DNA from: Lumbricus terrestris
Lineage: Eukaryota > Annelida > Clitellata > Crassiclitellata > Lumbricidae
Direction: 5' to 3'
Assembly (NCBI GenBank): GCA_949752735.1
Contig: OX457036.1
Coordinates: 11,681,352 to 11,745,351 of the forward strand
DNA length: 64,000 nt
Positions within the stretch are counted from its first letter, which is position 1. Every line of letters begins with the position of its first letter. The notes beneath the pieces are model-generated. The model was not told where the DNA came from and did no database searches. It saw nothing but the letters and a program-made list of their open reading frames with translations. Positions 1 to 58,600 of the stretch are shown piece by piece. The position numbers and the translations under genes were made by a program.

Positions 1-1505
1 TCATTGCTATCCCATGAAATCTTGCAATATTCCAAACCATACGCAGCATTAAGACTGCGAAGTGTTGAATCAAAATATGAGAAATATTCAATGCTATCTG
101 GCATTTGTTGCAATGGCAGCTTGCTGTTTATTAACAAATGAAACTTTCTTAACATAATTGTGCTTAGAAGATTAAAACAGACACCCTGTACAATGTCTAA
201 GGATTCAAGCATTTCAGAAGTAAAGACATCGCAAATTTGAAATCCTACAGAAAACAAGTTATCCCAAGATTCGAACTTCAATGATTTCCGAAATTCAAAG
301 ACAGCTTGTTTGTAGCCCGCCAAATATGGTGTCACTTTTCTTGCTTTTACAATTTTTGTGACTTCATCATGCGTCCTTAAGAATTGTCGTATGTAATTTT
401 CTACGAACCATTTACAAAGAATGCCAGAATCGTGGAATTCATGCAATCGTCGTTTCATCTTGCTAAGAATTGCGGAGCTCGAGGGCTTATGAAATAAATT
501 TGCTTCGGAAATAAAGTAGTTCGGAATGTACCCACGTTTTAACCATTCTAAAAGCTTCTGTAGCAACCCACAGCATATCTCAATAGCAGAAACGGAATGC
601 CACCAATCAGGTGACATCGTTTCACAAGTCCACAACATCAGTGTCTTTATATGATATGAACACAAAACCTCATCTTCCTTTGCACAATCTTTTTGTATTA
701 TTTCTCTCTTGCAGAAGAATCTCAACAAATGATAGACAATCTGCTGAACTTGAGTCCAACTGTGGAGTAAAATTACTTATGCTACCGAAAACGACAATCT
801 CCACTGGTATTTATCGTTCCTACAAGCACGATGCTGAATGTAGACAACATGACAACCATTTTGCACAACTTCGGAGATTTTGGCATTCGTCGGCCATCCG
901 TTATCTCTGTGTCGTTTCGGCCACTCTTCGGCGTCTCTAGGCCACTGAGGACACCAAATGGTTTTAACCGAATCAAACGTCATGGGATAGTGGCCAGTTT
1001 GCAGCTTAACTGCTGGACCTTTTACAGCGCCTGAAGAGACACAATCATATGCATCTGTGATAATATTAAGGTATAAATTTGCAGGAGGGGCGACGCCACA
1101 TTCATAATTTTTCAATTTCCAATTATAGTTCATCGTTCCAAAAAATCGAAGTCGGACAAGAACTGGATAAATGAGGCATGGCTCCATCTTACAGAACTTG
1201 ATCGTCTCGTTTAACCAACGCAAATCATTTGGCAACACTGGAAACTCACCAACAAATGCTAGCACATCGTTGCGGGTCATCATTTTATCATAATCGTCGA
1301 TGCAGGAATTCAATGGTCTGATGTAGAACTCTTCACTGCTACCACAAGCCGTGATGTGAAAGTTTGCCACACGACCCAATGAAGTCATTGTATCATATTT
1401 GAGATGAGAAACAACACCACACGCCTTTGGAAGCATCTGGCATGTAGGCCTACTAACAATGAACTCAGATGCAAGTTCCAGTTTTCGTTTTTCTGCGGTT
1501 TCCAT
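1..1505 (-). pseudogene. Mab-21/cGAS-like family gene, copy A (partial, one internal stop)
   Basis: The gene reads leftward from an ATG at 1503-1505 and runs off the window start at about residue 500 of a 970-residue family. Residues 1-242 give the Mab-21 N-terminal half: GSS near residue 55, D-x-D (DYD) near 71-73, and the W-P...W-P-x-R-x-R-x-x-G-W-P signature. The family motif SFSVAE is broken because the Glu codon reads TAA at 775-777. Past the stop the same frame stays open and homologous to copies B and C to position 1. The lesion is therefore a single GAA-to-TAA change: a young pseudogene, an allele, a sequencing error or, less likely, readthrough. Residues 19-20 (Arg-Pro) are a 6-bp insertion made by a TAGGCCTA octamer that B, C and D lack. 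Role by family: nucleotidyltransferase-fold sensor. Confidence 0.85.
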
Positions 1506-1520
1506 TCTGTATGGAAATCA
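1506..1520 (-). other. Candidate 3' splice acceptor directly before the ATG (copy A)
   Basis: On the gene strand the sequence just before the start codon reads CCATACAG|A-ATG. Copies B, C and D have the same layout (TACAG|G-ATG). A conserved YAG one base before the ATG in every copy with a 5' end suggests that a noncoding upstream exon is spliced to the start codon. The polypyrimidine tract is weak, and no transcript evidence is available. Confidence 0.5.
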
Positions 1521-1552
1521 TAATTTTCTTAAATCTGCCGCGTCATCGCGGA

Positions 1553-1735
1553 AATAATCACCATCGTCATCATAGCGATCAGCGTTTACATCACCTTCAT
1601 CATCATCGCCACCGTTATCATCATCGCCACTGTTATCATCATCGCCACTGTTATTATCATCGCCACCGTTATCATCATCATCATCATCATCATCATCTTC
1701 GCCACCGTTATCGTCTTCATCATCACGCTCATTTG
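1553..1735. repeat. Imperfect CAT/CATCGC microsatellite
   Basis: Runs of CATCAT with CATCGCCAC variants lie in the presumed 5' intron of copy A. Shorter CAT/ATC-rich stretches sit at the same place upstream of copies B (around 16950) and D (55930-56010), so the tract predates the duplications. It creates a spurious His-rich reading frame. Confidence 0.8.
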
Positions 1736-1829
1736 CATCCTATGCTTCTTATATCGGCTAATCGAAATAGTCCGACGAATGGCGATACATGACGACTATG
1801 ACTCGTAATCGTAATCGTGATCCACAAAT

Positions 1830-2100
1830 TTCTAAAGCGCTACTCGAAAGCCAAGCGCGGGGCACCAGATTATTCACGAGCGCTGCGTTGTCAAAAGGGT
1901 TGTCCGTGAGAGTAGTCCATGGTGGTCTGGGTCGAGTTAGCATAGGATCAGAGGGGTGGAACAGCAACAAAGGCGGGTGTCATCTGGGTAGGGAATTGGA
2001 GGGTGGAGAATCAGTTGAGACTGGGTAAGAGTTCTTTAAAAGGTGAGATTTCAGTTTCGAATGAAAAGCCCGAGGTATGATGGTCAGAGGAGCCTGAAGA
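1830..2100. repeat. Interspersed repeat, family shared with 46540-46800
   Basis: The phrase CTAAAGCGCYACTCGAAAGCCA, the following GGGCACCAG, and later matches (GGATCAGA, CCCGAGG) recur in the same order at 46540-46800. These are two diverged copies of one dispersed family of about 270 bp. I see no coding capacity and cannot name the family. Confidence 0.55.
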
Positions 2101-2394: not shown

Positions 2395-3195
2395 TAAGCG
2401 CCACCATAGACCTATGGTGACCCGTCATAATCGCCCACCGACAAAATAGCCCCGTCGAAATAGCTCAATGACGAAATGGCCTCGTCATAATCGCCCACCG
2501 ACAAAATAACCCCATCATAATCGCCCAACGGCAAAATAGCCCCGTCAAAACAGCTCGTCAAAATAGCTCCCTGAACAATGAACAGAGTCCCGTCATAGCA
2601 GCCAACGACAACTCAGTTCCAGAATGGCTCAAATGTTTAATGTTAAAAGTAACACAGTGAACAATGTATTTAAAACAAATGAGCGAAACTACTATTTGAA
2701 ATGCGGTGATTGCTATAGCAAGATGTTAACGAAACTACTAAGAAAGTATAGCGGCTTCATCAAAGTGCGGATTGGTCGCTCTCAGATTTTGTAACACGTT
2801 TGTAGAACCGTTATTTGCTAACCTTTATTCTTTAGCAAGGAACTGCTAAAATAACATAGGCCTATAAGTAAGTTTGTTCATTGCCTTTTTTTAGCTCTTC
2901 TTATCTTCATTCAGATGATCGCTTGATCCTAGCTATCGATGTTGCCGTTAGTGTACCTCTGAACCGATTTCCAATTAACGCTTTGAAGTATAGCCCAGAG
3001 TTAAACTAATCTTATTTTGCACCGATTTGTTTGACATTACATGTTTAATTTAAGAAAATTGTTTGATATTGCGCGACTTTGTTGGTACTACGGCGCTATT
3101 TAGTCGGTGAGCGATTTTGACGGGGATCTTTCGTCGGTGGGCGGTTATGACTGGACTGTTTGGACGGGGCTATTTTGACCGGGCTATTTTGACGA
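2395..3195. mobile_element. Foldback-type element with internally repetitive arms
   Basis: The left arm (about 2410-2600) repeats short phrases such as CGTCATAATCGCCCACCGAC and AAAATAGCCCCGTC. The right arm (about 3085-3195) carries the same phrases in reverse complement (TCGGTGGGCGGTTATGAC, GACGGGGCTATTTTGAC). The roughly 480-bp core is AT-rich and noncoding. Inverted arms made of short tandem repeats fit a foldback element or a MITE. I could not define exact ends or a target duplication. Confidence 0.55.
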
Positions 3196-4150
3196 GGTGC
3201 CATCGGGAACAGATTTTGAACACCCGTGACAAGTGACCAGTGTCTGGCAGAGTTGGCCAAAGGTTGGGCAGTCCCCAAAAAAGGAAGGTCCACCCCAGCC
3301 GGAGGATTCTACTTTTTGAGTGTTGCCCAGCGTTTGTCCCGGTTTCATCCGTAAAAGGTATTCATGTAGTCTCAAATGTTATTTCCAGCAGATAGAAATT
3401 GTTTTGATCTATTCAGGACGAACATATGGATTGAAATTCATACCATAATAGCCTAAATGATTGATGACGCGTGTTTTCATCAGGCAAAATGTTTCTTCTT
3501 CTCGATTTCACATCCCAATGAGTAGGCTATACAAAATCTCCTTCATGACCAAATCTCATGATGACATTTCTTAATCGGTAGACTAAGTTTATACAAACCT
3601 TCTTCATGGACAAATCCTATGGTGTTAAGTATAGCCGTGCCTCAATGATTAGGCTATGCAAAATCTCCTTCATGACCAAATTGCATAGCATTAACTAGAC
3701 AACAAGCGTAAATTCATTAAACAAAATGAATGACTTGACTAAGATACCACTTGCCTCAAGCTACACTGAAATAAAAAACAGTAGTAGTCCTATCGGTGAA
3801 TAAATCAGGTTGCTGAACTTCACGCATGAGCTTACATATGCAATTGTACATTAAGACTGAATTCGATGAAGCTGACACAATTACAACGACAGTTCTCTAC
3901 AGACAGCTTTTCCCATACACGAACTAGAATCTTAAAACATGTCCGGTTTGTTAACGAATTGGAAGGTGCACTAAAAGTGAAAGCGTCAGGCCTAGTGCTT
4001 AGACTACTAATTAAATTAGGCATTGCTCTTTGCCTGCCAACTCTGTTACAGACTATCAGTTTCCTCGTAGACAACTAATTGTATCCGCAATTGTTGGCTT
4101 TTAGGCTTAGACGTATTAATTGCGTTCCCGCTTGTATTATACCGAGGGTA
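3180..4150 (-). repeat. Paralogous upstream block of the Mab-21 genes, copy A
   Basis: The block matches 18.15-19.3 kb (copy B), 48.34-49.08 kb (orphan) and 57.03-58.6 kb (copy D). Landmarks are GGCAGAGTTGG, an ATTGATGACG phrase, a TTCTTCATG/CTCCTTCATG phrase, the candidate donor at 3749-3754 and the exon-like motif ACTTCACGCAT at about 3818. It travels with the gene, so the duplicated unit is gene plus several kilobases of 5' sequence. Confidence 0.75.
3755..3920 (-). other. Candidate noncoding first exon with a GC-type donor (copy A)
   Basis: On the gene strand the conserved block ends in TTGAG|GCAAGT at 3754/3755. Copy B has AAG|GTAAGT at the same place, a near-perfect donor; copy D has AAG|GCAAGT. 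Joined to the acceptor at 1506 this would remove about 2.25 kb. GC-AG introns with otherwise strong donors are a known minor class. The exon's 5' limit and the promoter are not determinable here. Confidence 0.4.
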
Positions 4151-4200
4151 GGGTAACGTTTATTATTGTTTAACGTTGATGATGTCGACACACAAACACG

Positions 4201-4202
<2 letters not shown>

Positions 4203-4233
<31 letters not shown>
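4203..4233. repeat. (CA)n microsatellite
   Basis: About 15 CA units follow a CACACAAACACGCTCACACA lead-in at the distal end of the copy A upstream block. Confidence 0.95.
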
Positions 4234-4235
<2 letters not shown>

Positions 4236-4261
4236 GTATAGAGATAAGTGAGTATATTATA

Positions 4262-4640
4262 TGTCAAATCAATCAAATCAATCAAATCAAATCAAATCAA
4301 ATAATTTTATTGGTCCGTTTGAAACAAAATAAGCACAACAAGTCAGGTACAAAGTAACACAAAGCATCTCCAGTATCACCAAGTTGTCAATCCATTAACT
4401 TAATTAGGTAACATAAATTATATTATTCAGACATATAGCTAAGACTGGTATGATCTCCAAAAGAGTAGGCTAGGTAAGGATTGGTTACACCTAGTGGTTC
4501 TAAGGTTAAGTGATACCAGTGTGGACGATTATCCCTAGACCTGGAATGCGAGGTTATAAAAAACTCGTGCAATAGTGGACACAAATGGAGACTCAGAAGG
4601 GAGAAAATCCCGCTAGTAGGGCCCCCAAACAAACTATTAA
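4262..4640 (-). mobile_element. 3' end fragment of a LINE (minus strand), low support
   Basis: The segment opens with TCAAA/TCAAT repeats followed by TAATTTTATTGG. This is the reverse complement of the (TTTGAT)n tail on the plus-strand LINE at 13770-13785. A tail repeat followed by A/T-rich sequence is what a 5'-truncated LINE on the minus strand looks like. No coding sequence remains, so the assignment rests on the tail. Confidence 0.4.
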
Positions 4641-6260
4641 ATAATTTTGATATATACGCACCACAATTTGATGAAAAACCAAAGCAACAGTAGATGAGTA
4701 GGCCTATACAAAAGATGCGAATCAGTATAATCCTTTCTTAAATCCAGGTGCAAATTGCATTTAGGTGTTGTCATACATTATAAACAAAAATCAAGGACTT
4801 GGTCATAATAATGATTCATGATGAAGTTTTATCAGGCCAAATTGCTTGCTAATAGGCTACCATATCCTGTCACAGGGACGTGGGCGCAGTGAGTAGACTA
4901 GATCGCGGCGCTTTAGGAATTGCTAATTACATTACATTCTAGAACACCAATCAATCTTTTGCAATGGTCAGCCATTTGGCATCGAGGAGTGAAAACCAGG
5001 GACCTCAACCTTGCCTATGTTTTATGGTCCTTCTTGGATTCTTTCCCCTTCTTTTCTCCTGAGCGCATTGCTCCCTTATTTGATTCGTTCAACATATAGT
5101 GTTGTTTTCGCATGAATAAACAATCGCAGCGATTTTTATCCGACCGAGTTCTCAGGGGCGTATACAGAAATTTTTCGAAGAGGGGGGGCAAAAAATTTCA
5201 GAAAATCTGATGACCTTTTTGGTCGTTTGGTCGAAATGTCTAGAAAATATACCAACTTTCCTGCCAGAATAACTTGTGACTTTTTAGTCGTCAGTCATCT
5301 CGGTCGAAGTAATCTCTTCACAAGTAATAATGAATAATATACTATATGGCCTCTCTAATATCCTACTTTTCTCTCCCGCTGCGTTGATTTAATGGCTTGT
5401 TGGAATCGGTCAGAGTCAATTTTTTACATTCAGAATATTCAGAATGTAATCAAGTCTAATTCTTAAAACAATGAGTTTTTCGCGTCGTTCTACAATTAAT
5501 GCCGTTAAATGTTTTATAATATGCATATTAAACCTTCAATTAACTTAGCATATTTTTACATTGCTAAACTAATGTGCAATGTATAGATGTTCGCTTAACT
5601 TAGGCCTATTACTACATTTTGTGCATCATTTTTAGGTGATGATATCATAGACTGGGGGGGCTAATGTCCTACTTGGAGTCTATTGTCCGGGAGGCTAATG
5701 TCCGGGAGGACACACGGAATCGATTGATGGTGATCTATAATATAATTCTGAGATTCTGTGGGTATGGATGTCCGTCGCAAGAAAGGCTCAGAGACCGATT
5801 CATTTCGCAACACTAAACAATTTTTTTTAGCTTCTCATGCGAATTTGTGGGTCAGGATGACTATTTTCAGCTCTCAACTCACCGTAAAAAGCGAAATATC
5901 AACATTTTAATTTTGCGCCTGTTTAGCCTTATAGAAAAGCGTTACAGATTTAGTTCACCATTGTTGCCATTCGTTGGACGAACCACATCAGACTACAGTT
6001 CGAATGAGTTCGCCATGTCATGACGTCATTCTTGCTTATCGCACGAATATGAAACCGGTTGACAAAATCGCGACCGGTTTCAGTGTAGGCCTACAATTAA
6101 GCAGTTGAAATATTCACAAGAACGCAGATCGCAGAAATCTTAACTATACTAACAGAACAGACAACCAGCAATAATTGTATTAACCAAGTTATTAATAGGC
6201 ACTCTCATTCATGCAGTGCAGAAACCATAGAGAAAGGAGTGTGTGTTTGTCCAGAATTAT
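4641..6260. other. Noncoding interval without a recognised gene
   Basis: AT-rich sequence with no convincing reading frame. Position 5153 starts CAGGGGCGTATACAG followed by a G-rich run, which resembles a hAT terminal sequence, but I found no matching right end. TAGGCCTA occurs at about 4703, 5602 and 6084. Confidence 0.6.
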
Positions 6261-6268
6261 ACGCCTAC

Positions 6269-6423
6269 CATGCATGAGCGGAGTATGGTTTCCGTTCTTG
6301 GAGGGGCTAAAGCCTTCATGGGGGGGGCTAAGCCCGGGAAAAGATACCATTTACACGGTAAAAATGAATTTGGGTCTTTTGGGGGGGCTTAAACCCCCTA
6401 GCCCCTGACAAACTCCGCCCATG
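6269..6423. mobile_element. Short hAT-like MITE (155 bp) with 8-bp TSD
   Basis: The direct repeat ACGCCTAC flanks the element at 6261-6268 and 6424-6431. The ends are inverted: CATGAGCGGAGT on the left (after a CATG duplication) against CATGGGCGGAGT read from the right. The interior holds G-runs (GGGGGGCTAAGCCC) and no coding sequence. An 8-bp TSD with these ends fits the hAT superfamily. Confidence 0.75.
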
Positions 6424-7175
6424 ACGCCTACAGTTTCACAGCTATTGACCACCGGAACAATCCAATGGAGGGATTTGTGAAGATCTCTCCACGAGGGCCT
6501 TCGTGGGGACGAAAAACCGAAATTTCGCTATTTTCATATATTCGCGCAGTTTCGCATATTTACACCTCAAACCTTGCAGCTAGAGAGATAGAGAGCGGCC
6601 GAGCCACTACCCACAGTCAGCACACATCCGCCCCGCAGGGGCGAGTCATGTTTGACTTTTGGGGGGGAAGCGAGGTGGGGTGGAGGGTTGGCGAAGCCTC
6701 CAAATTTAGCGGTCAACGCCGGGTACCTCAGAGTAGTGTAAAAAATCCTAAATTTCCCGCCATATCTTGACGTCAGCGCACACTTTGCAGAATTTGACCT
6801 GATTAGGTCCTATACGCTTACAAGCATGCTGTATTTCTTACATCATGCTTACAAGACAGATCTGACATATTTTGCAACCAATCAGATGTAGCCATTTTAA
6901 CATTAATGGTGACAGGATTATTCTTAGAATTAACATAACCCGGGCGAAGCCGGGTATAAAAGCTAGTGAGAGATAAGAGGAATTTGTTTTCCTCAGGTCA
7001 TTGGAGGAGATGAGGAGTTTGACAAAACAGTGTCGTCTATTCAAATCCCTCTAGTTGGATTATAGAGGAAATTCTCATTGACTTTTCAGTTACAGACTCT
7101 GATTTCGGCATACCTGGGAACGGCGGTCCCAAATGATAAAATTCCATAAATCGATAGTGTGGAGTATTGGATGGG
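6424..7175. other. Noncoding interval with a Helitron-like terminus
   Basis: I see no gene. The stretch includes a G-rich segment at 6640-6690 and the Helitron-type 3' end listed separately at 6939-6966. The right part to 7166 is the target flank of the next element. Confidence 0.5.
6939..6966 (+). mobile_element. Helitron-type 3' terminus (hairpin plus CTAG)
   Basis: CCCGG (6939-6943) and CCGGG (6950-6954) form a stem with a six-base loop. Eight bases later comes CTAG, followed by T. Helitrons end in CTRR preceded by a short GC-rich hairpin about 10 bp upstream and insert before a T. No 5' end or helicase was found, so this is a terminus of a nonautonomous copy at best. Confidence 0.5.
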
Positions 7176-9049
7176 CAGTGTTTAATCTAGTCCCCCTCCT
7201 CTGGGGGGGGAATTGGGGTTTCTGGGGGGGGAGACATTTGAACGTCCGAAGGACGCTCGTGATGCGCGTAGCACCGAGACTGGGAGGGGTATGGGGAGGG
7301 GGATGCGTCCCTCCCCATCAGAAACTTTTTGAATTTCCACATTGCAATGGCAGCATTTTAAGGTGTCGTCTTAACAAAATAGCTGTACTTTTTCAGTGAC
7401 CCTTTAGAAAATTTTTGGATTTCCACATTGCAATGGCAGCATTTTAAGGTGTCGTCTTAACAAAATAGCTGTACTTTTTCAGTGACCCATTTGAAAATTT
7501 TTGGATTTCCACATTGCAATGGCAACATTTTAAGGGGTCATCTTAACAAAATAGCTGTACTGTTTCAGTGGCCCATTAGAAACTTTTTGAATTTCCACAT
7601 TGCAATGGCAGCATCTTCAGGTGTCATCTTTAAAAAATAGCTGTACTTTTTCAGTGGCCTATTAGAAAATTTTTGGATTTCCACATTGCAATGGCAGCAT
7701 TTTAAGGGGTCATCTTAACAAAATAGCTGTACTTTTTCAGTGGCATATTAAATTTTTTTTGGATTTCCACATTGCAATGGCAGCATTTTAAGGTGACGTC
7801 TTAACAAAATAGCTGTACTTTTTCAGTGGCCTATTAGAAAATTTTTGGATTTCCACATTGCAATGGCAGCATTTTAAGGTGACGTCTTGACAAAATAGCT
7901 GTACTTTTTCAGTGGCCCATCAGAAAATTTTTGGATTTCCACATTGCAATGGCAGCATTTTAAGGTGACGTCTTGACAAAATAGCTGTACTTTTCAGTGA
8001 CTTCTTAGAAACTTTTTGAATTTCCACATTGCAATGGCTGCATTTTAAGGGGTCTTTTTTAACAAAATAGCTGTACTGTTTCAGTGGCCCATTAGAAACT
8101 TTTTGAATTTCCACATTACAATGGCAGCATCTTCAGGTGTCATCTTAAAAAAATAGCTGTACTTTTTCAGTGGCCCATTAGAAAATTTTTGGATTTCCAC
8201 ATTGCAATGGCAGCATTTTAAGGGGTCATCTTAACAAAATAGCTGTACTTTTTCAGTGGCATATTAAAAATTTTTTGGATTTCCACATTACAATGGCAGC
8301 ATCTTCAGGTGTCATCTTAAAAAAAGCTGTACTTTTTCAGTGGCCCATTAGAAAATTTTTGGATTTCCACATTGCAATGGCAGCATTTTAAGGGGTCATC
8401 TTAACAAAATAGCTGTACTTTTTCAGTGGCCTATTAGAAAATTTTTGGATTTCCACATTGCAATGGCAGCATTTTAAGGTGACGTCTTGACAAAATAGCT
8501 GTACTTTTTCAGTGGCCCATCAGAAAATGTTTGGATTTCCACATTGCAATGGCAGCATTTTAAGGTGACGTCTTGACAAAATAGCTGTACTTTTCAGTGA
8601 CTTCTTAGAAACTTTTTGAATTTCCACATTGCAATGGCTGCATTTTAAGGGGTCTTTTTTAACAAAATAGCTGTACTGTTTCAGTGACCCATTAGAAAGT
8701 TTTTGAATTTCCACATTGCAATGGCAGCATTTTAACTTAAGGTGACGTCTTGACAAAATAGCTATACTTTTCAGTGACTTCTAAGAAACTTTTTGAATTT
8801 CCACATTGCAATGGCAGCATTTTAAGGTGTCATCTTAACATGATAGTATCATATATTATAGTAATAAAATGATGCCATTATAATCATATAATAATAAATA
8901 ATATCACGATATATTATAACACTTCATGTAAAACAATGATGACACAGTAACTAGAAACCAATATCATTTCGTCAAATTTTTCTGGGGGGGGAAATGTCAA
9001 TCCTGGGGGGGGAACTTTCCCCCCCCAGAGACGTCTAGATTAAACACTG
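7176..9049. mobile_element. TIR element carrying an 86-bp tandem array
   Basis: The ends are inverted repeats: CAGTGTTTAATCTAG at 7176-7190 and its reverse complement at 9035-9049. Both are followed inward by CTGGGGGGGG-type runs. TTGGATGGG is duplicated on both sides (7167-7175 and 9050-9058), a 9-bp target duplication. The interior is a 130-bp head (with CGTCCGAAGGACG) and then about 1.5 kb of tandem repeats. No transposase is present. CAG ends suggest hAT (8 bp expected); 9 bp would suit a Mutator-like element. Diverged relatives lie at 29.9-31.4, 45.1-45.8 and 61.1-61.4 kb. Confidence 0.75.
7325..8845 (+). repeat. 86-bp tandem repeat, about 17 copies
   Basis: The phrase TTTCCACATTGCAATGGCAG recurs every 86 bp (for example 7334, 7420, 7506 and 7592). 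Each monomer also holds TTAAGGTG and AAAATAGCTGTACTTTTTCA. Some monomers come in higher-order groups: the sequence around 7850-8090 is repeated almost unchanged at 8450-8700. It makes short shadow reading frames on the minus strand that are not genes. Confidence 0.95.
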
Positions 9050-9074
9050 TTGGATGGGCAAAAAGTGTGGGTTT

Positions 9075-9365
9075 TTCATCCAGCCTCCATTTCTTAAGCG
9101 TTTCTTCATCAATCCGGCTTCTATTTCAGATCTAGAAATACTTTCATCCAGCTTCTATTTCTCATGCATTATTTTCGTCAATCCAGCTTCTATTTCACCT
9201 GCAGAAGAACCTTCATCCAGATTCCAATTCTCTTGCGTTTTTCATCAATCTAGTCTCCATTTCACCTGTATAAGGTCTTCATCCAGCTCCTATTTCACTT
9301 GCGTTTTTTCAATCAATCCAGCCTCCATTTCACCTGTAAAAGCTTCTATTTCTCAAGCGTGGTTT
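9075..9365. repeat. About 67-bp minisatellite, four copies
   Basis: CATCCAGCYTCYATTTC alternates with CATCAATCCAGYCTCC through four diverged units; each unit looks like a dimer of a 33-bp monomer. It lies immediately beside the target duplication of the previous element. Confidence 0.75.
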
Positions 9366-9546
9366 CTATGCGCCCATCCTATACACCGCGCTATAACGAC
9401 ACGTCATGTTGATTTATTTCCCAACGGAATACCGTCAAAACAACGTAAACAATGACGTAAAAAGCCAGAGAAGCTCGTAAGTAAGTGAATAAGTAAAGAA
9501 TGAAGAAAACAAGTGAATAAATGTAGCCTTAACTGTAGTTGGCTCT

Positions 9547-10285: not shown

Positions 10286-10299
10286 GTCTATTAGGGCAT

Positions 10300-13790: not shown

Positions 13791-13969
13791 GAACTAACGA
13801 AATGACGAAGTTATCCTCTCGGAGATGGTAACAAATGTTGTTTTCTGTTAGACAGCGACGGCTACTTTAAGAAGTTTATAACTCTAAATGTTAGCGCTGG
13901 GCGTTATCCAACCACCCACTTAACCGGCCGTCTAGCGATACTCGATTCTAAGAAATATTAGGATTATTT

Positions 13970-18003: not shown

Positions 18004-18009
18004 CCTGTC

Positions 18010-21605: not shown

Positions 21606-21613
21606 CCTTGATG

Positions 21614-43057: not shown

Positions 43058-43070
43058 CCTGTACAGAAAA
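43058..43070 (-). other. Candidate 3' splice acceptor before the ATG (copy C)
   Basis: On the gene strand TTTTCTGTACAG|G-ATG. This is the best polypyrimidine tract of the four copies. Confidence 0.55.
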
Positions 43071-43129
43071 TATAACAGTCTTCTATAGGCTACAAGAAGC
43101 TAAACGAACAAATTGTCTGGCATTTAGTA

Positions 43130-45830: not shown

Positions 45831-46206
45831 ATGGACAAGCAGTGGATAACACCGTAGAAATCTATAATAATGTTTGTGATAATATTTCTGAAATATTTGG
45901 GGGATATAAGATATAAGCATCTCCGTCACCACCACAAGTTCCGGGTTCCGTTCCTCGATCCTATCCCATTTAAGTCTACACCCCTGTGCGAGATGCTAGT
46001 TCAATAACATAGGCCTACGTGTATCTTTCAGATTCTGAGGATGGTGATTTTTGGATGGGATCACATAAACTTAAAAAGGGTGCGTGTAATATGGGGATAT
46101 ATGGAGAATTTTGAAGAAAATTTGAGTATGCATTGGCCTACAATCCTACATCATGTATATATGTATTGGATAGCCTGTGTGGCTGATAGGCTAGCTCAGT
46201 CTGGAT

Positions 46207-47360: not shown

Positions 47361-47368
47361 GTCTGGAT

Positions 47369-48340: not shown

Positions 48341-49080
48341 CAGTTCCATCCCCCAGAGGTTCATGTAAACTCAAATGTTATAGCCAACAGATAGAAAATG
48401 TTTGAGATCGTAATCTATTCGGGATGACCATAATAATAATATTATTGCTCCCGAAAACATCTATTTCCATTGGTCTGCCGATCGTGAACAGCGACCCTCT
48501 AAATCCGACACTTTCTTGTGCATATGGATTGAAATTTACCATTGATGACGCACGTGTATCTTTTCAGAAAGTAAGAATAGATTTTCTAACGAATTTGCGT
48601 CTCAATCAGTAGGCCCATACAAATCTTCGACTTGAACAGATTGCATAGGCTTATCATTAAGTAGACAAGCGTTAATCCTATAGGTAAAAATGAATAACTT
48701 GTATAAGACGGCACTTGCCCTAAACAATGTTCAAATATAATGTATGATTGTCAGTGAATCGATCAGGCAGCTGAACTTCACGCATCCGTTAAGACTGAAC
48801 TCAATGAAGCTGTCACACCAACTATTTTCTATATGGAACTTTCCTATATACAGGCCTGCGCTCTGTAAATCCATGCCGCTCCAGAAGCGTGTAATGCATA
48901 TACGCTAAAAGTGAAAGTATTGGGCGTAGGGCCTACTGCGAAAACTAACCTTTGCTCTTTCCTGCAAACTGCATGCAGCATAAGTTTAAGTTTTCCTTTA
49001 TCCAACTAACAATTGCGTAAACTATATACTCAATTGTATTGCCCCGCCACCCCTCCCCCGATGATTAATTACCATTATTA
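48340..49080 (-). repeat. Orphan upstream block of the Mab-21 family
   Basis: Matches the copy A/B/D blocks (AACAGATAGAAAATG, TTGATGACGCACG, TGAACTTCACGCATCCG, GACTGAACTCAATGAAGC). The donor-like GGGCAAGT lies at 48713-48720. The nearest Mab-21 start codon is copy C, 5.3 kb away, which already has its own first-exon candidate. It is either an alternative promoter for C or the remains of a lost gene copy. Confidence 0.65.
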
Positions 49081-49344
49081 ATATTGCTGATAGGTTTGCC
49101 ATACAAACACGCACACTCATACACACACGAAAACGGACAGACATGCATAAGCACACTTAGGCCTATGTACAAAAATGTATATCTAAATATCTTTAAATAG
49201 GCCTATATAAGATATATTCAATTCAATTTTCCTTTAATCATGACTTATGGCTGGCAAAACGAAGCCTGTTCCATTGTAGCAAATTTAACAAAGGTTTTAT
49301 TTATTGAGTTTGATGGCCTCAGAACTCGATAAGTTCTTCACCGA

Positions 49345-50042
49345 TTCTGTTCAAAATTTTCGCAAACCGTTCCATTCGAACATAAGCGTGTTGTTATAAT
49401 GCCTTTTGGGGAAAAGCGCAATCTTTTCGACCAAAAAACACAACTATGCGAACGATTTGACCGATCTCGATTTCAATTTCAAACCGACGTTGCTTCCGAC
49501 TGCAGCCGTCTATTTATAGCACATATAGGCTACGTGCGTTCGTTTTATAGCGCATATATTTATCTAGCTGTTGATTTCTACAGTAACAAAAACTAACGTT
49601 TTACATTTTTAGTTATATAGATTTTCGCAAACCGTTCCATTCGAACATAAGCGGGTTGTTATAATGCCTTTTGGGAAAAAGCGCAATCTTTTCGACCAAA
49701 AAACACAACTATGCGAACGATTTGAGCGATCTCGATTTTTACAAAATCAAGGATCTCGGAGTTTTACGGACGGACGGACAACGGACGTACGGACGTGGAG
49801 GGACAAAGGAGATGAAGAGAGGGGTGAGTGTGAAAGGGAGGGAGCGGGAGGAAGAGGGAGGGAGAAAGGGGAGGGAGAGAGCGAGGGAGAGGGATGGAGG
49901 AAACGGGAGGAGGGTGTGAGGCAGGGAAGGGGAGGGGACGGGAGGACAGAGGCAGGAAGGGAGACAGAGGAAGGGAAGTAGGGAGTGAGGGTGGGAGGGA
50001 GAGTCTTTTCAGCCACAGCAACGCGTGGCGGGGTACAGCTAG
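49345..50042 (+). mobile_element. Helitron-like nonautonomous element with direct repeats
   Basis: A segment of about 130 bp (TTTTCGCAAACCGTTCCATT ... GCGAACGATTTGA) occurs at 49356 and again at 49621. The right end has the hairpin GCCAC/GTGGC (50012-50029) followed by GGGGTACAG and CTAG at 50039-50042, then T. Between them is a GGGAGGGAG-rich purine stretch (49800-50000). The terminus fits the Helitron rule; the 5' end is not located. Confidence 0.5.
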
Positions 50043-50496
50043 TTCTCTATAAATTCTTTCCTTTTCTTTCTCTTATGCGCAAAGCCAACTTGTGTGTAAT
50101 CCGGTTGACATGGTATTGTTTTCGCGCGAAGAACCAATTCTGGTTTTTGTATGGCCGCGCTTCCGGCTCAGCCTGCACTTGTTTAGAGAAGAAATGTGGC
50201 ATTTTCTTGTGTTTTCAACCGTTTTTATGACTAAGGAATGTTGTATCAGGGTAATTAATGCGTCCTAGCCCGATTTTGTGATGCCATCCAATGCATTGAA
50301 ATGCTGAAATCCACTCCAAGCTGCTGTGGCTGGTCAGCTCTCCTCTCTGACTCATCTTGCAACTGTTTCTTTGTTTGCCATCCAATGCTTTGGCCTGTCT
50401 GTAACTTCCTTCTCTCCCTCTATCTTCTGCAACTATCATCGCTGCCAATAAATCTCCATTATGCTTATCTCTCGTATTTTAATAATCATTTACATA

Positions 50497-51560
50497 GGGG
50501 GAGGGTGCGGCAAAACGCCCATGGGAGGTAAGATGCCCATAGGCATTATTTCAGTCAACTGAAATGCCGAATCCAAATTTTAGTTAGAACCGTTTAGTTT
50601 TATGTATTTCCGGTTGAAAGACATCCTACTTTCGTTTTCCCTGTGACCAGGTCACTCGTTATCAAGAAAAATCGACTTTTGCGAAAGCTGATGTAAGGGT
50701 TCCCATTTTTCATTAATTTGTTAAAATTACTTAGTTTCGCTTTTTCCGAAAGATCCATGCTTTCTTGGATTCATACTTATTTAGGTATGCTACATTGAAC
50801 TTAAACCTGCCATTGAAGTAGTCGTTTTAGGCGAGGAGTATGGAATGTAACTACTACTGCTTGGGGGTAAGATGCTCACGGGGCTGGGCGTCTTACCCCA
50901 CGTAACTGGGCGTCTTACCTCACATGACTGGACATACATACCTACATACTACAGAAATACATATATACATACATACATACATACATGCATACATACATAC
51001 ATACATACATACATACATACATACATACATACATACATACATACATACATACATACATGCATGCATACATACATACATACATTCATGCATACATACATAC
51101 ATGCATACATACATACATACATACATACATACATGCATACATACATACATGCATGCATACATACATACATACATACATTCATTCATGCATACATACATAC
51201 ATACATACATACATACATACATACATACATACATGCATGCATGCATGCATGCATGCATGCATGCATACATACGTACATGCACGTACGCTAGTCAATTATC
51301 TAGTATACATTATCATTGGGGTAAAATGCCCAGGCTATGGGCATTTTTCCCCCTAGGTGGGGCAAAACGCCCATTTTGGACCAAACACTTTCAGACAATT
51401 CTGTGCCTAAAGTTGAATCCATTTAAGTTTTTTTATTTAGTGATATTGTAGCTTAAGGGCAGATGTTTATGATGATAAAAAAGTAACATCAATTGTTAAT
51501 GTGCTTTGCTCTCTACACCCGGTTTTTCCTTAAGGGGGGCGTTTTGCCCCACCCTCCCCC
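50497..51560. mobile_element. TIR element around a CATA array
   Basis: GGGGGAGGGTGCGGCAAAAC starts the left arm (50497) after TA. The right arm ends GTTTTGCCCCACCCTCCCCC (51560) before ATA. Inside both ends are repeated phrases (GGTAAGATGCCCA, GGGCGTCTTACC, GGGTAAAATGCCCA) in both orientations. The interior is the 340-bp CATA microsatellite. No transposase is present. Target duplication TA or ATA, not resolved. Confidence 0.65.
50935..51275. repeat. (CATA)n microsatellite, about 340 bp
   Basis: CATACATACATA with scattered CATG variants ending in (CATG)n. It generates long spurious frames (Thr-Tyr-Ile-His or Cys-Met-Tyr-Val repeats) on both strands. Confidence 0.98.
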
Positions 51561-52950
51561 ATAACACCATGATGAACTCTGCTATAAAACTACGGAGTCT
51601 TTCCGTCATCCAAGTGATCCAAATGGTTGCATCTCGTATATTAATGCGCTTGTGACCACGTTCACGATGGAAAACACGATAGTTATCAAAAGTAATTTTG
51701 TATTCTCAATATTCGGATTTATTTGCATTCTGCCTATAATATGGACTTTGTACAATTTTTATGTAATAAAAATACAATTCGCTGAAAGCATAACAGGAAC
51801 ATATTTTTCTGATTAGTCCTATATTCGTTTGGTGCGGTACTGTACATGATCCGTCTGGGCAATTAGCCTATCTCTCGACATAGCCCACAATGTTTAAAAG
51901 CCTGCTTCATCTCGCTTGCGGCTGAACACTGGGCTCAAAAGATGATCGCACACTCTTTTATACAATCCAACACAATGAAATACAGTACAGTAGGAATACA
52001 ATACAATACAATTTCAATGGAATACAGTAGAAGCAAATTCAAAACACCAATATAATACACAATTCAACGCAGTGCAATATAGCGCAACATGAAACGATTA
52101 CAAGTCATACACTACAATACTTAACAAGGAACTATAACACCACGCATTTACGATACGTGCAGTCGTGCACTACATCCTGAAACCGTTTGCAGGCTAGCCA
52201 CGCTCGTTACGACCTACTACTATACCAGACATCACAGATCGCAGTTCAGATGGCTCAGCCTATAATTACGTCAGCACAGTTACACAGTCAGATAATATAA
52301 TTATGTCGGTCCTGTTCTAAACACACCACCGAACATGATGAATTTACATCTTTTAGGGAAAGCTTAAACAAGGAAGAAGGTATAAGAATTATTCCGGCAT
52401 TCATCATTATGTGAATCAGAAACAGTCGCAAATGTTAATGAATTCTCTGCAATGTATTGTAATCCCGAAAACAGATTTTTTATGCTGCGCCTATCCTGTG
52501 ATATAGAAGATAATTTATATAACGACACTCAAAGGAGATATTAAGAAGGCTACTCTGTTGCCGCACTGTATCGTGCTGGATAAAACACTGTCGCAATTCT
52601 ATCACGAGTTCCCTGCAATGCATTATAATAAAACAGCATCCATGCAAATTATAAAATTTCTCTGTAGATAATATTTGAACATCGATGGGGAAATACACAG
52701 ATAGATAGAAAGACGGACAGACAGAGAGACAGACAGACGTACCCGAATATTACTTCAAATAGTTTATTCGTATTTGGCCGAATTGTCAGGACGCAATAGA
52801 AAGACATTATACAGGAGCTTAGAGATTGGATAGTCTACTTTAAAAACAAAGTCTTCAGCGTGACATTTACCAGGAAAAGAGATTAACTAGGAAACAAGGT
52901 CTTGCATTTTTTATCATCTTAAAGATAAAACTCCGGAATTGCTTCCAAAA
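51561..52950. other. Noncoding interval, 3' flank of copy D
   Basis: AATAC-type short repeats occur at 51965-52070. TTCAAATAGTTTATTCGTAT (52753) matches the flank of copy E (59790), so this is duplicated 3' flank. I see no gene. Confidence 0.5.
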
Positions 52951-52954
52951 TTTC

Positions 52955-55870
52955 TGAAGTTTAGTAGAAGAAACCAGCGAATGATACGTTCAAACGGAAG
53001 ATTACACTTCACGGCAGCAAATTCAGCCAATGCTGACTTTGCTGCTTTTCTATTATAGATCGCAGTCGATACAGCATCTGAGTTTCAAATAGCTAGCTAC
53101 GAAACGTTTTTGAAGAATATAATGGCACTTAATCGTATAGTCAATGGACGCTGAAAGCGGTTCCTTAAGATAGCAAATGCATCGGCAGAAAAAGTGGGCA
53201 AACGTTGACTCGTCAGTACATTCAGATTTGCACATATCGTCATTCCTAGGTGACAAATAATAAAAGAGAGTATGAAGTCCAAGCAAACACTGTACATTTC
53301 TATCGAAAAGTGTGTCAATGGGTGGCAATAGCAAAACATGTGCAAATGCAAACTCATTTGAATCGTTTTGCAGAATAATGCTACAAAGCCTTTTGTAACT
53401 TTGCGCAATAGATGTTTCGTTGTGAGGTTGACAGAATGCAATGCAGGTTCATTCAGAATATTTTCACATAAATGCAACACTTCATCGTATCGACGAAATT
53501 TATACAGGTACAAAGCACGATAGCAGTCACCTGTGTTGCACTGCATGCCAAAGTCTTTGCGAATCACATCGTAGAATGTCGTCAAACTCTCCATGGCATG
53601 TTGTGTTAAATAATCAATTAGTTTTCCTTTGACTATCGAAGGATTCTGCCCAACTGCTGCATCACTTGTCAGTGATTCCTCTCTCCGATAAACGCATTCT
53701 CTGAGATCTTTGAAACAAATGACTGACTTCACCGAAATGAAGATCATTCGCTCTGTTAAAGCCGACAGTAAGTGGTCTAACGCAGTAGATGCCGAAGTTG
53801 ACAAATCAGGATTCAACTGTGAGCTTAATTGCATTGAAGATCTAATATAGGATACTGTTGTTAAATAATATGCAAACACATTTGGGGTCAGACGGAGATC
53901 GAGATAGATCTGTCTCTTTGGAAAAATCAGTTTTTCACCAAACTTTTTATAAAGCAGACAAAATCCAACGATTGTAACGACATCGTCAATGAACAGCAAA
54001 CAACCTGCGTTCAATGTTTCATTGCCAGCGCTGTTAGTTTCACACATCGAAAATGCTGAGCACAAATCTTCTACTAATTGGTTTTCGAAGTTTACAAAAT
54101 GAATAGCAGCAAGATAGAGCAAAGATGCAGGGGCAATTACGTCGCTTTGGGAATCATTTGTTTCTAAGGTCTTTCTAAGAAATTCCTTTGCTAAGAGAGA
54201 CATCAGTTGAAATCGAGTTTCGCTCTCGGACCCGGTTAAGTTTTCCATAAGATCCTGTGCTCGTAAATATAGAAGAAGACTTGTTTCCGATGTGGCGGGT
54301 GTAGGCCATGTGTGATACTGACACTTGACGTTTTTGGGCTTTAAGAAAATTGCTTTGATGAATTCATGAAATGCATCGCTATCCCATGATTTATTATGGC
54401 AATATCCCAGCAGTCAAACAATGCAGTGTTGAGTCAAAAAGTGTGAAACACGAAATGCTTTCTGGTATTGGTTGCACTGGCAGTGTACTGTGTATTAACA
54501 AATGAAACTTTCTTACAATATAAGCTGATAGAAGATCTACGTTCGCTTGAAAGTCTAAGGATTTAACCACCACTCTAGAAGTAAAGACATTGCAATTGTG
54601 AAATCCAACAGAAAACAAGATATCGAAAGATGCGAACTCCAATGCTCTCCGATGTTCGAAGACAGCTCGCTTGTATTTCTTCAAGTTTCGGGTTACTTCT
54701 CTTGCGTTTATCGTTTTTGTGACCATGGCATTCGCCCGAGTGAATGCTTCTATGTTATTATCTACGAACCACTGACAAAGAATGTCAGAATTTCGGAACT
54801 CATTCAACCGTCTTTTCGTATAGCCAAGTATCGCGACGCTCGAAGTGCCATGAAACAAATTTGCTTCGGGAATGAAATAGCTCGGAATGTAACCGCTCGT
54901 TAGCCATTGCAAAAGCTTTCCTCAATAACAGAAATGGAATTCCACCAATCAGGTGACATCATTTCACAGGTCCACAACATCAACGTCTTTATATGATACG
55001 TACACAAAACCTCATCTTCTTTTGCACAATCCTTTTGTATTATTTCTCTCTTGCAGAAGAATCTCAACATATGATAGACAATCTGTTGAACTTGAGACCA
55101 ACTTTGGATTAAATTAATTCTGCTACCGAAAACGACAATCGCCACTGCCACTCATCGTTTCTACAAGCACGATGCTGAGCGTAGACAACATGACAACCAT
55201 TTTGTACAACTTCAGAGATTTTAGAATTCGTCGGCCATCTATGATCTCGATGTCGTTTCGGCCAATCGTTGGCTTCTCTGGGCCACTGAGGACACCACAC
55301 GCTCTTAACCGTATCATATGTCATAGGATTTTGTTCAATTTGGAACGTAATTGCGGGACCTTTCAGAGTGGTTGATGAGACAGAAAAATCCTCCTCGTTC
55401 AGGGCTAGATCAGTTCCATTAGCATCTGTATTAACCTTAATGTACAAATGTATGGATGGTGCGACACCAAATTCATACTTCTTGCATTTCCAGTTATATT
55501 TCATCATTCCGAAAACTCTAAGTCGAACGAAACCCGGGTAATTGAGACATGGTTCCATCTTACAGCACTTTATCGTCTCTTCTAACCAACGCACATCATT
55601 TGGCAACGCTGGATATTCTGCAACGAATGCCAGCACAGTGCGATAGGTCAACAGCGTGTCTTGGTCGTCGATGCAGGTATTTAACGGTCTGATATAGAAC
55701 TCTTCACTGCTACCGCAAGCCATGATGTGAAAGTTTGAAATACGGCACAGTGATGAACTTGGATCATATTTGAGATCCGAAACAACACCACACGACTTTG
55801 GAAGCAACTGGCATGTACTGACAATGAACTCTGATGTAATTTCAATTTTCTGTTTTACTGCCGTGTCCAT
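52955..55870 (-). pseudogene. Mab-21/cGAS-like family gene, copy D (multiply frameshifted)
   Basis: ATG at 55868-55870. The first 253 codons are clean and keep GSS, DQD and YDTVKSVWCPQWP. Lesions compared with B and C: a 1-nt deletion just after SFSVAE near 55115; a net deletion of about 19 nt near 54915-54920; indels around 54395-54405 where YGLE is lost; and an insertion of about 55 nt near 53360-53430 in the TPR-like region. Between lesions the reading remains close to the intact copies through LAEFAAVKCNLPFERIIRWF near 52970. It is a clear pseudogene, older than A, still with a complete 5' region and upstream blocks. Confidence 0.9.
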
Positions 55871-55890
55871 CCTGTATGGATAGTAATATT
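55871..55890 (-). other. Candidate 3' splice acceptor before the ATG (copy D)
   Basis: TACTATCCATACAG|G-ATG on the gene strand, as in copy B. Confidence 0.45.
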
Positions 55891-55899
55891 ATTTATTGA

Positions 55900-56465
55900 A
55901 TGACAGTGTCATCTACGTTGTCAACTTCATCAACATTACCAAAATGTCATCAGCATCATCGTCGTTTATCGCTTTCAGTGTTGTCATCGTCATTATCATC
56001 ATCATTATCAATTGTCAACATGATGATCTTCATAATGATCAATTAAAACGCGCTGGTTTGCCACCTAGGCTAACAATGAACTCAGATAATTATAGTTTAT
56101 ATTATCCGCTTATGTGCTTTTGCATCCTGTTTATTTATTGTTATTTCAGAGATTTTATATAGCGCCTCTTAAAGGTATGTTACTCAGAAGCGCTCCACGC
56201 TCAATCACGGCTAAATAAGACAGTTTTAAGGTTCTTAAGGAACCGAGTGTAATGACCCCTGGGAATTAAGCGCAGTGTAACAGGGAGGCCATTCAAGGTT
56301 GTAGGACCTGCTACAGAGAATGAACGACGCAGTCGGATAGAAGTCCGCGAACGGGGACGAGAAGCTCAGAAGTTCGCCGATCGAAGGGTGCAATTTCAAT
56401 CCTTGTGGCCAATCACAGAGTGGTCCATTTTAGGCGCTGGTCCATCTTTAGCAACCTTCCTCTAC
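55900..56465. repeat. CAT-rich tract and an interspersed repeat
   Basis: CAT/ATC repeats at 55930-56010 correspond to the tract upstream of copy A. From 56155 the phrase TATAGCGCCTCTTAAAGGTA ... GAAGCGCTCCACGCTC begins a noncoding repeat of about 280 bp, SINE- or MITE-like. I could not find its ends. Confidence 0.45.
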
Positions 56466-57030
56466 AGAAACTAGCGTTTGAATTTAAAACACGGCCGATT
56501 TAGTGACGCATTATGAAAGTGCGCTAAAAAAAGAGTAGGCTATTAGGCATAGCCACATAGGGCTACAAATTAAAGCATCCGTTGCTCTTTTCCTGCAAAA
56601 TGTATGTGAAATTGAGGTGAAGTTTCATCACACTAATTGCATAGATCTAATCAATTGCTTGCTATCTTAACGGCGTTTCTGCTTGTATACCCTGATGACT
56701 GCGAGTATATCTTTGATGGTGCTGCATACAAACACGGAGACACAAACACAAAAGAACACGCGGATACACACAAACTTACTAGGGACAAAGATAGGCCTAG
56801 ATATTTAAATAGTAGGCCGAGATGTCGACAAGTGCAATCCTTTATTAAAACCAACTACAAACTGAATTTTGCTGCAGCCCTAAACTTCAAAATGAACCGA
56901 TATAGATCATCTTAATAACATGTTAAATGTGAGAAATTGCCTGCGGTGAGTATTATGATAATTATTATCCTGTCATGGGTGCGTGGACGCATCGAGTGGA
57001 CTGGATAGCGGTGCAATAAAAATTGCATCT
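56466..57030 (-). repeat. Partial duplicate of the upstream block (copy D)
   Basis: TTTAAAACACGGCCGATTTA, GCGCTAAAAA and TTGCTCTTTTCCTGCAAAATG match the middle of the blocks at 18.9 and 57.7 kb. The complete block starts again at 57.03 kb. The upstream region of copy D therefore contains a block and a half in tandem. Confidence 0.55.
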
Positions 57031-58600
57031 TCTACTTTTTCAGTGCTGTCGTGCGTTTTCACTTTTCACCAGACCAAACCCTTCAAAAGCCTTTCTGTAA
57101 TCTCCATGGTTACTACCAGCGTAACCAGTGGTCAGCAATATACTGGTTTATTCGGGGTCGACCACATTTACTCCCTAAAGCATAATGGTTACCATTCGTT
57201 GGTCTGGGGATCGTGAGCCACGCCCTTCAAATCCTACACTTTCTTGTGCGTGTGAATTGAAAGTTATACCATTGATGACGTATAGGCTATCTTTTCATGA
57301 AGTAAAAATCATTTCTCAGACAAATCGTATCTCAATCAGTAGGCCTATAATACAAATATTCTTCATGAACACATTCTATTATGTTTACTATAGGCTAAAC
57401 ACATCTTAATTAGCAGGCCATAAAAATCTTCTACATGGACACAAATCTTCTACAGTGTGAAGTATAGTCCTACAACAAGAGTATTATACTATAAGCAAAA
57501 TGAATGACTTGACTAAAACACAACTTGCCTTAAGCTATGCTGGTAGGCCTATATCAAACAGGAGTATCAGTGAATTGATCAGGCAGCTGAACTTTACGCA
57601 TCCGTAAAAATTGAACTTGATGAAGCTGACACAACTGCAGCAGCTGTTTTCCTAATGCAACTTTCCCATACACGAAAAACACGACCGATTCGGAAACTTG
57701 TATGAAACTGCGCTAATGAGAAAGTATTAGGCGTACTGCTGACTAATCAACCTAACCACTGTTCTCTTTGTGCGTGTACCACATTTAAGTTTTCTTTTAT
57801 CCCACTTATATTCTGTACTCGATTGTTTGCTGTATTGACAATGTTTCCGCTTGTAGGCGAGAATTGCTTGTAGGCCTATAAAATTACTGTTGATGATGTT
57901 GCCACACAGACTCGCTTATACACAAGCAGAATTGCCTTCAATGGGCAGGCCTATATCAATAATTATTATCCAGCCAAGGACTCGTGGGCGCATTGGTTGG
58001 ATTGGATAGAGGCGCAATAGAAATTTAAAACTTAACCTACTGTTTCATCTTTTAATAGGTGTTACGCTTTGGTTTATATTCTTCGTGGGTAAATTGTATT
58101 GAACTATTGACCCACGAGAACAGACGCTGCAATGATTGAACATTTTATTTTGTATGGACACTCGCGAGAAATTTTTATTCGAGGCGAACGGCACTAGACA
58201 CGAAGTACGGAGTGCAGACGTGATAAGTAGTCGTTGCGTAAATTACTGTACCGTATTTAACACTCTATGGAATGCCGAAATTTCTATTATAACCTTGTAC
58301 TCCAATAATTATCTAGGTTACATCTCACATTGACACCTGTGAGTCCTAAAAGGGCCTAGGTCCCGCTAACAAGGATCACCCTAGAATAATCGTTTAAATA
58401 AATAGTTAAATGAAGGTAGACCTAATCAGAATATAACTGAAAATTCAGGTTTAAATACACAGGTAAAAGTTTGTACAGCACAAAATCTTGACTAGTTGAC
58501 TAATTTGCACACGAGGCAAACTTGAATAAGACGTGAAAACAGATGAGCAGGCGTATACGCAGTTGCAAAGCCGTAGCCAGGATTTTATTGGCTTAATCGT
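57030..58600 (-). repeat. Upstream block of the Mab-21 genes, copy D
   Basis: Colinear with 18.2-20.2 kb. It contains AAG|GCAAGT at 57529/57528 on the gene strand (GC-type donor candidate), ACTTTACGCATCCG, CACGACCGATTCGGAAACTT, TTTTGTATGGACACTCG and ACGAGGCAAACTT. TAGGCCTA occurs at 57340, 57547 and 57872; at the last site copy B has TAGGACTA. Confidence 0.75.

Follow-up and report, generated by a model that had tools for sequence, protein, structure and literature searches.

We report here that a 64,000-nt stretch of the Lumbricus terrestris genome (assembly GCA_949752735.1, OX457036.1:11,681,352-11,745,351; hereafter the window, part of a 98.9-Mb sequence in an assembly totalling 1.056 Gb) is strewn with short words of G and C enclosed between two TA dinucleotides, namely the octamer TAGGCCTA, the heptamers TAGGCTA and TAGCCTA, and the nonamers TAGGCCCTA and TAGGGCCTA, and that these words, which we call scars, are very probably excision footprints of transposons of the IS630-Tc1-mariner group, with pogo-type elements that begin with GG and end with CC as the best candidates. 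A first-pass annotation of the window had put the octamers at about two dozen where about one would arise by chance, and exact matches indeed number 24, against a mean of 0.42 and a maximum of 3 in 100 dinucleotide-preserving shuffles; among octamers of the window other than simple repeats, TAGGCCTA also ranks first by its ratio to order-2 expectation. The genome-wide comparison with a control word that the annotation had called for points the same way, with 354,398 octamers, a total that is not the number of events since satellite and repeat copies are included, against 8,418 occurrences of the reversed, uncomplemented word. The genome further holds 1,136 occurrences of TAGGCCTATAGGCCTA (control, 0). 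Satellite units of about 170 bp bear several octamers each (L008:5394-5987), with similar repeats in L001 and L002.

Word frequencies were taken from a sample comprising the window, 17 10-kb stretches from nine large sequences (L005-L021, with N runs in 4 of the 17) and four 10-kb stretches adjoining the window (L022-L025), which with the L008 satellite masked amounts to 263,209 readable bases; some counts, the flank-preference figures among them, cover the window and the first 17 stretches only (234 kb before N), and L001-L004 were excluded because they had been chosen by the octamer itself. The octamer occurs 101 times in this sample against 1.6 expected, the two heptamers 131 times against 13, and the two nonamers 10 times against 0.66; TAGGTA/TACCTA shows no enrichment there (60 against 66 expected), TAGCTA stands at 50 against 41, and neither TAGGCGCCTA nor TAGGGCCCTA occurs in the sampled DNA. 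Of the words in the sample that consist of G and C only and stand between two TAs, GGC/GCC makes up 131 of 173 three-base words, GGCC 101 of 133 four-base words and GGCCC/GGGCC 10 of 13 five-base words, without such dominance among two-base words (60, 50 and 46), and GGCGCC was not found between two TAs in the 263 kb. A scan of viral contigs for the octamer gave 16 contigs, none with a high density. The octamer may also be frequent in fish sequence.

That the scars are insertions is seen where paralogous copies can be compared. In self-alignments of the sampled sequences, here with L003 and L004 included, each partner was scored against the word with GGCCTA removed. Partners were available for 25 octamers, eight of which proved to be insertions with a TA, bare or almost so, in the partner, four shared, six of substitution type and seven ambiguous (three of the 25 came from L003, one of substitution type and two ambiguous). 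The heptamers, which the first-pass annotation had taken for trimmed variants, count independently as insertions at TA, with 11 of 23 scored as insertions (one of which also has a substitution-type partner), two as shared, six as substitutions and four as ambiguous. Control words put through the same procedure fitted the removed form in 16/380 (other TANNNNTA), 22/306 (TANNNTA) and 6/103 (TASNNSTA) cases, and Fisher tests that treat sites as independent gave 2.5e-5 for octamers and 1.1e-6 for heptamers against control. The paralogues thus show what defines a footprint, a duplicated TA around the added bases and a single TA at the unoccupied site, with an exact TA in a partner at window positions 1445, 14242 and 40861 and at several heptamers. 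In a list of indels drawn up blind to the motif, no 5-bp insertion is as frequent as the GGCTA/GCCTA class (5/23), and AGGCCT shares first place among the 6-bp ones (2/24). Within the window, 10 of the 24 octamers have an alignable partner: four apparently bare, three of substitution type, two shared and one ambiguous.

Three of the window's octamers fall in Mab-21 genes, where the first-pass annotation had read them as 6-bp insertions that each add Arg-Pro. A nine-sequence alignment and a frame check bear this out, all three reading xxT AGG CCT Axx on the coding strand, with the first starting at 1445 rather than one base later as annotated. A bare TA in the other copies is seen throughout for this octamer of copy A, a clean insertion with TA in 6/6 other covering sequences, and in part for the remaining two: the other sequences have TA in four cases and TG in three at 14242 (copy B), and TA in three and AA/GA/TG in three at 40861 (copy C). 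The open frames of copies B and C each carry a single octamer and are free of heptamers and nonamers, as expected if selection removes frameshifting scars, the numbers being small. Upstream of copy C, at 43086, TAGGCTA in this copy and in copy Z (in L024) corresponds to TAGCCTA in the L022 copy; a G:G mismatch resolved in two ways would give such a difference, and so would a later substitution. As to the Mab-21 genes themselves, positions 1-61087 of the window are part of a large cluster at C1:11.43-12.60 Mb, a span of 1.2 Mb that holds 39 of 43 matches to copy C (40 of 571 candidates scored). A further copy, E, is split by an 8.9-kb insertion (window 61087-69985, running into L024) whose ends read CAGGGCCTACTA and whose 8-bp duplication is GAGGTGGA; by eye it is hAT-like.

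Clean 6-bp and 5-bp insertions at TA between paralogues, coding sequence included, are hard to square with the octamer being inherited as a functional or repeat-borne motif (a binding site, satellite or transposable-element consensus) that is merely kept or point-mutated. Such a motif would account for the 4/25 octamers shared within repeats, the 6/25 that differ from their partner by substitution, and the octamer-bearing satellite; as mutated neighbours of the octamer are common, there is no sign of strong purifying selection on it, and we consider this the least probable of the explanations weighed here, with very little to be staked on it.

The flanks of the scars point to an enzyme-like choice of site. 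A purine precedes the leading TA in 75% of 176 octamer flanks (p 5e-9) and 71% of 214 heptamer flanks (p 4e-9), compared with 52% for TA generally, and since both words share this R-TA-Y preference they seem to be made by one process. Octamers with one mismatch number 160 in the sample against about 50 expected, an excess of about 110 next to about 99 for intact octamers; decayed octamers are therefore about as many as intact ones and production has been long-lasting, a balance that would be expected if scars are made steadily and decay neutrally, and that speaks against one recent burst. Scars are also clustered, with 78 neighbour pairs closer than 200 bp against 37.5 expected in the sample. 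In aligned pairs of 70-97% identity we counted 37 directed scar-versus-bare events (18 sites) and 42,460 mismatches, the latter in both directions, or about one scar per 570 mismatches, a rate that is only rough because much of the aligned DNA is coding.

A candidate source resides in the same genome. A search for DDE_1 transposases returned 129 places (140/140 candidates scored), many of which have long open frames and score equally, a sign that nearly identical copies may form several groups. The copy L052 has an 850-codon frame matching DDE_1 (94.9 bits) and HTH_psq (39.2 bits), and a search with it found relatives 97-100% identical, mostly 99-100% (40 of 1,329 first-look candidates scored), which break together at L052 base 400, where another repeat adjoins in L052. 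Element ends, read from two other copies, are TA followed by GGGTAATTGAACC... and, from the opposite side, TA followed by GGGTAATTGTACC...; at two sites the element reads TA-GGGTAATTG...CAATTACCC-TA with unrelated flanks beyond the TA, and it is 4.3 kb long, TA-flanked, with ends GGG...CCC. The inverted ends, GGGTAATTGWACC, span 13 bp with one base different and extend imperfectly to GTGGCCAC. The TA target-site duplication is present at both ends of the copies on C2 (C2:51542231-51546539) and C5, and the C5 copy sits in the 3' TA of an octamer, the unoccupied form being ...GACTAGGCC-TA-TGTATG.... The end pattern TAGGGTAATTGWACC (TA included) has 48 exact matches genome-wide and none for its reversed control; by our own pairing, 38 of these ends face each other in 19 pairs, spaced between duplications at 4,305 bp in three cases, at 3,146-3,147 bp in three more and at 3.9 to 10.2 kb in the remainder. 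The bases added in the scars are thus the terminal bases, GG...CC, of a resident element, as a footprint should have them. DDE_1 with a helix-turn-helix (HTH) domain, TA duplication, short inverted repeats, length and transposase size all agree with the pogo superfamily, to which we assign the element on the strength of its domains and end features; the TA-flanked element with GG...CC termini that the annotation had predicted does exist, and belongs to pogo rather than to Tc1 in the narrow sense.

Three copies of this element (C1:84764799, C7:12223808 and C16:41522658) have the near-equal shortened length of 3,146-3,147 bp with the same interior missing, suggesting a mobile non-autonomous derivative. 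L052:400-4400 is itself rich in scar words: its 4 kb hold 9 octamers, 4 heptamers and 2 nonamers, several times the density of the sample, and just one of these words falls within the frame; self-insertion, local hopping or use as binding sites are possible origins. No remains of the GGG-ended element were found in the window, where TAGGGTAATTG at up to 2 mismatches occurs 16 times against 17.6 expected; other unselected loci yielded one word (L008) within 2 mismatches of the 15-base element end, and five words lie at 3 mismatches from it, one of them in the window.

We propose that scars arise as follows. Insertion at TA gives TA-GG...CC-TA, a state seen for one family. On excision the transposase would leave mostly two terminal bases as a 3' overhang on each flank; end joining with both GG overhangs filled in would then yield TAGGCCTA, overhangs overlapped by one G:G mismatch would yield TAGGCTA or TAGCCTA, and a three-base GGG overhang joined to a two-base one would yield TAGGGCCTA/TAGGCCCTA, which fits the spectrum. 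Scars would drift to fixation while element copies move on or vanish, and would therefore come to outnumber them; an excess of this kind could arise in a large population where excision far outpaces fixation. The causal link from element to scars is drawn from the terminal bases, the target dinucleotide and the one insertion into an octamer.

Comparison with known systems, for which we draw on excerpts of the papers cited, lends this scheme precedent. Excision of Tc1/mariner elements leaves 3' overhangs of 2 or 3 bases, whose sequence, between the two copies of the target, makes up the footprint (PMC3878927); like the scars, these footprints are two TAs around a few terminal bases made by end joining of such overhangs, whereas the scars are deduced from the genome alone, have GG/CC as inner bases and number 354,398 in the intact octamer form. 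Footprints of ZB measure 0 to 3 bp (PMC7913693) and those of Passer, a fish pogo element, 0 to 4 bp (PMC9976928). Passer resembles the GGG-ended element in its TA target, short inverted repeats, DDE transposase and few, nearly identical intact copies (PMC9976928), and differs in its BrkDBD/HTH_Tnp_Tc5 DNA-binding motifs and a transposase of 400-500 aa (PMC9976928, PMC7386202), compared with HTH_psq only and 850 codons here. The pogo superfamily as described in PMC7386202 shares with our element the TA duplication, the DDE domain and HTH_psq among the listed motifs, and has inverted repeats that in most families do not exceed 40 bp, lengths of 1.2-5.2 kb and transposases of 300-977 aa; HTH_psq is given there for Fot/Fot-like elements, with mostly TAA duplications in Fot, whereas the GGG-ended element has TA. 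Within the excerpts of open-licence literature at hand we found no description of TAGGCCTA as a footprint, or of footprints this numerous.

PMC3878927 gives the footprint of both Sleeping Beauty and Frog Prince as C(A/T)GTA; PMC520745 writes the Sleeping Beauty footprints in a differing form, ATGTCAT and ATGACAT. A rival source of the scars would be an unseen family with GGC...GCC ends and a 3-base, Sleeping Beauty-like stagger. Full overlap with a central G:G mismatch would here give TAGGCTA/TAGCCTA, overlap of the palindromic GC tips TAGGCCTA, and one-base overlap TAGGCCCTA/TAGGGCCTA, so that the whole main spectrum is predicted, nonamers included and TAGGCGCCTA absent. Set against this, no GGC-ended element was seen in the sample, and the sole GG-ended element found has GGG, a direct account of the nonamers; we hold such a family to be an unlikely source, if one to be taken seriously.

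Other resident transposons fit less well. A search for DDE_3 transposases gave at least 147 places (150 of 2,198 candidates scored), many of them Tc1-like, and ten loci were looked at: L030-L033 have ends TACAGTGG..., a second group (L050, L051) has clear ends TACAGTTGTGGCC or TACACTAGTGGCC, and no clear ends were found in a third group (L026, L027) or in the partly N loci L028 and L029. The Tc1-like elements with clear ends begin with CAG, and TACAGTA, the footprint word expected of CAG-ended Tc1 elements, stands at 45 against 38 expected in the sample; these elements were rejected as the scar source. The footprint of Tc1 itself is TACATGTA, which is enriched in the sampled loci (37 against 7.4), an excess behind which common TACA/TGTA microsatellites may lie. 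Sailor (DD82E), with TATA duplications and GT or CC as first bases in the available description, does not match either. Among 16 large insertions between paralogues none is TA-GG...CC-TA, and several show duplications of about 8 bp that are hAT-like by eye.

Several observations weigh against pogo-type excision as the origin of the scars. No excision product of the GGG-ended family was seen in the single assembly, and its scored copies differ too little among themselves to account for scars whose decayed forms are common, so that older or sister GG...CC families must be assumed; diverged copies may exist uncounted, since 40 of 1,329 candidates were scored and only exact ends counted, and judged by frame lengths and scores there are further DDE_1 groups with long frames. 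A search of the sample for a TAGG-starting inverted-repeat family gave three pairs, none convincing. Slight enrichment of TAGTA/TACTA (427 against 353) and twofold enrichment of TAGGCATA (13 against 5.8) are not called for by footprints. TAGGC words outside scars also have a purine before TA in 62% of cases (234/376), compared with 75% in scars, a preference that could stem from decayed scars or from background. The partner comparison that the first-pass annotation had proposed gave the excess over control words, with a bare site at only 8 of the 18 octamers of clear state; in the other 10 the partner has the octamer too or differs by substitution, and these may be older scars that both copies inherited. 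A further 7 octamers are ambiguous. The score moreover tolerates partners that deviate slightly from TA (AA at 57544), and at L022 octamer 6890 the empty site is CA in 5/6 partners and TA in one. To these is added the inflation of the genome-wide total by repeat copies already described. Even so counted, more than 350,000 intact octamers face about two dozen exact-ended copies of the sole element with readable ends.

This disparity of orders of magnitude, and the failure to see an element-occupied allele at any scar (in one assembly), are what would be expected if no transposon were involved and a TA-directed break-repair or polymerase process added GGC/GGCC between a duplicated TA. To our knowledge no repair process does so. 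The added bases, moreover, match the ends of a real TA-inserting element, and the R-TA-Y preference suggests a site-choosing enzyme, which together make a transposon-free origin very improbable, and excision of pogo-type elements remains the reading we prefer.

The remaining features of the window are collected in Table 1. The overlapping octamer pair that the first-pass annotation had noticed near 31600 is located there, and its statement that no octamer lies in the young LTR or LINE coding sequence was confirmed, with neither octamer nor heptamer found in the long terminal repeat (LTR) element at 33375-39815 or in the LINE stretches 10192-13154 and 24375-28437. The former is a retrotransposon with end repeats 99.6-100% identical, a zinc knuckle and weak, below-cut-off matches to Ty3-capsid and protease. 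Octamers and heptamers are likewise missing from the tandem array of roughly 86-bp units at 7314-8840.

Table 1. Scar words and Mab-21 paralogues in the window (positions from the first base of the window).
Feature	Position	Strand	Observation
Mab-21 paralogue B	13970..16882	-	open frame 970 aa; used for alignment
Mab-21 paralogue C	40151..43057	-	open frame 968 aa; used for alignment
Mab-21 paralogue D	52937..55951	-	no single long frame; used for alignment
TAGGCCTA in Mab-21 copy A	1445..1452		6-bp insertion vs bare TA, 6/6 copies
TAGGCCTA	2857..2864		exact word match
TAGGCCTA	4699..4706		exact word match
TAGGCCTA	5601..5608		exact word match
TAGGCCTA	6086..6093		common to 96%-identical repeat copy in L005
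TAGGCCTA in Mab-21 copy B	14242..14249		6-bp insertion; TA in 4 copies, TG in 3
TAGGCCTA	19590..19597		exact word match
TAGGCCTA	20485..20492		partner ambiguous
TAGGCCTA	23971..23978		substitution vs partner
TAGGCCTA	29226..29233		exact word match
TAGGCCTAGGCCTA, two overlapping octamers (31602/31608)	31602..31615		exact word match
TAGGCCTA	32472..32479		exact word match
TAGGCCTA	32488..32495		exact word match
TAGGCCTA in Mab-21 copy C	40861..40868		6-bp insertion; TA in 3 copies, AA/GA/TG in 3
TAGGCCTA	44642..44649		common to repeat copy in L009
TAGGCCTA	44884..44891		exact word match; inside repeat shared with L009
TAGGCCTA	46010..46017		exact word match
TAGGCCTA	49158..49165		exact word match
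TAGGCCTA	49198..49205		exact word match
TAGGCCTA	56792..56799		exact word match
TAGGCCTA	57340..57347		partners AAGGTC, TAGGCC; partial/substitution type
TAGGCCTA	57544..57551		insertion type by score; best partner AA, not TA
TAGGCCTA	57871..57878		partner TAGGACTA, one substitution
TAGGCTA	18941..18947		5-bp insertion vs bare TA in 57100-58600 paralogue
TAGCCTA	23706..23712		5-bp insertion vs bare TA, L024 paralogue
TAGCCTA	46440..46446		5-bp insertion vs bare TA, L014 copy
TAGGCTA within TATAGGCTA	57283..57289		7-bp insertion vs TA
TAGGCTA upstream of Mab-21 copy C	43086..43092		TAGCCTA at same site in L022 copy
TAGGCCCTA nonamer	31634..31642		word listing
TAGGCCCTA nonamer	46987..46995		word listing
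TAGGGCCTA nonamer	48927..48935		word listing
21 further TAGGCTA/TAGCCTA	3449..60130		word listing, sites not each aligned to partner
Further heptamer starts, first part	3449, 3523, 3650, 4466, 4853, 9983, 19249, 19444, 29718, 30402, 32730		word listing
Further heptamer starts, second part	44927, 46187, 46337, 49526, 51864, 56066, 56536, 57391, 59534, 60124		word listing

Overall, two records in this genome seem at odds, as DDE_3 transposases occupy at least 147 places and the CAG-type footprint is barely in excess, while GG...CC scars are everywhere and their candidate source is represented by 48 exact ends. One tentative reading, which we put forward as a conjecture somewhat short of even odds, is a hit-and-run mode of life, where pogo-type elements that were never numerous have been a main source of short insertions in this lineage and have left most of their history in scars and little of it in copies. 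Intact scar words (octamers and heptamers) have a density of 0.88 per kb in the sample, with background and copies carried by repeats counted, which on this conjecture would extrapolate to the order of 0.9 million intact scar words genome-wide, background again included. Whereas the activity of transposons is usually deduced from the copies still in place, in this genome the vacated sites could perhaps serve for that purpose. If so, the scar words would be a record of excision whose joint spectrum reports on the repair of breaks in the germ line, and the outcomes of germ-line end joining would become countable in any genome with such scars. Low-copy elements could then be major mutagens, with Arg-Pro insertions in genes among their effects, while adding little to repeat annotation.

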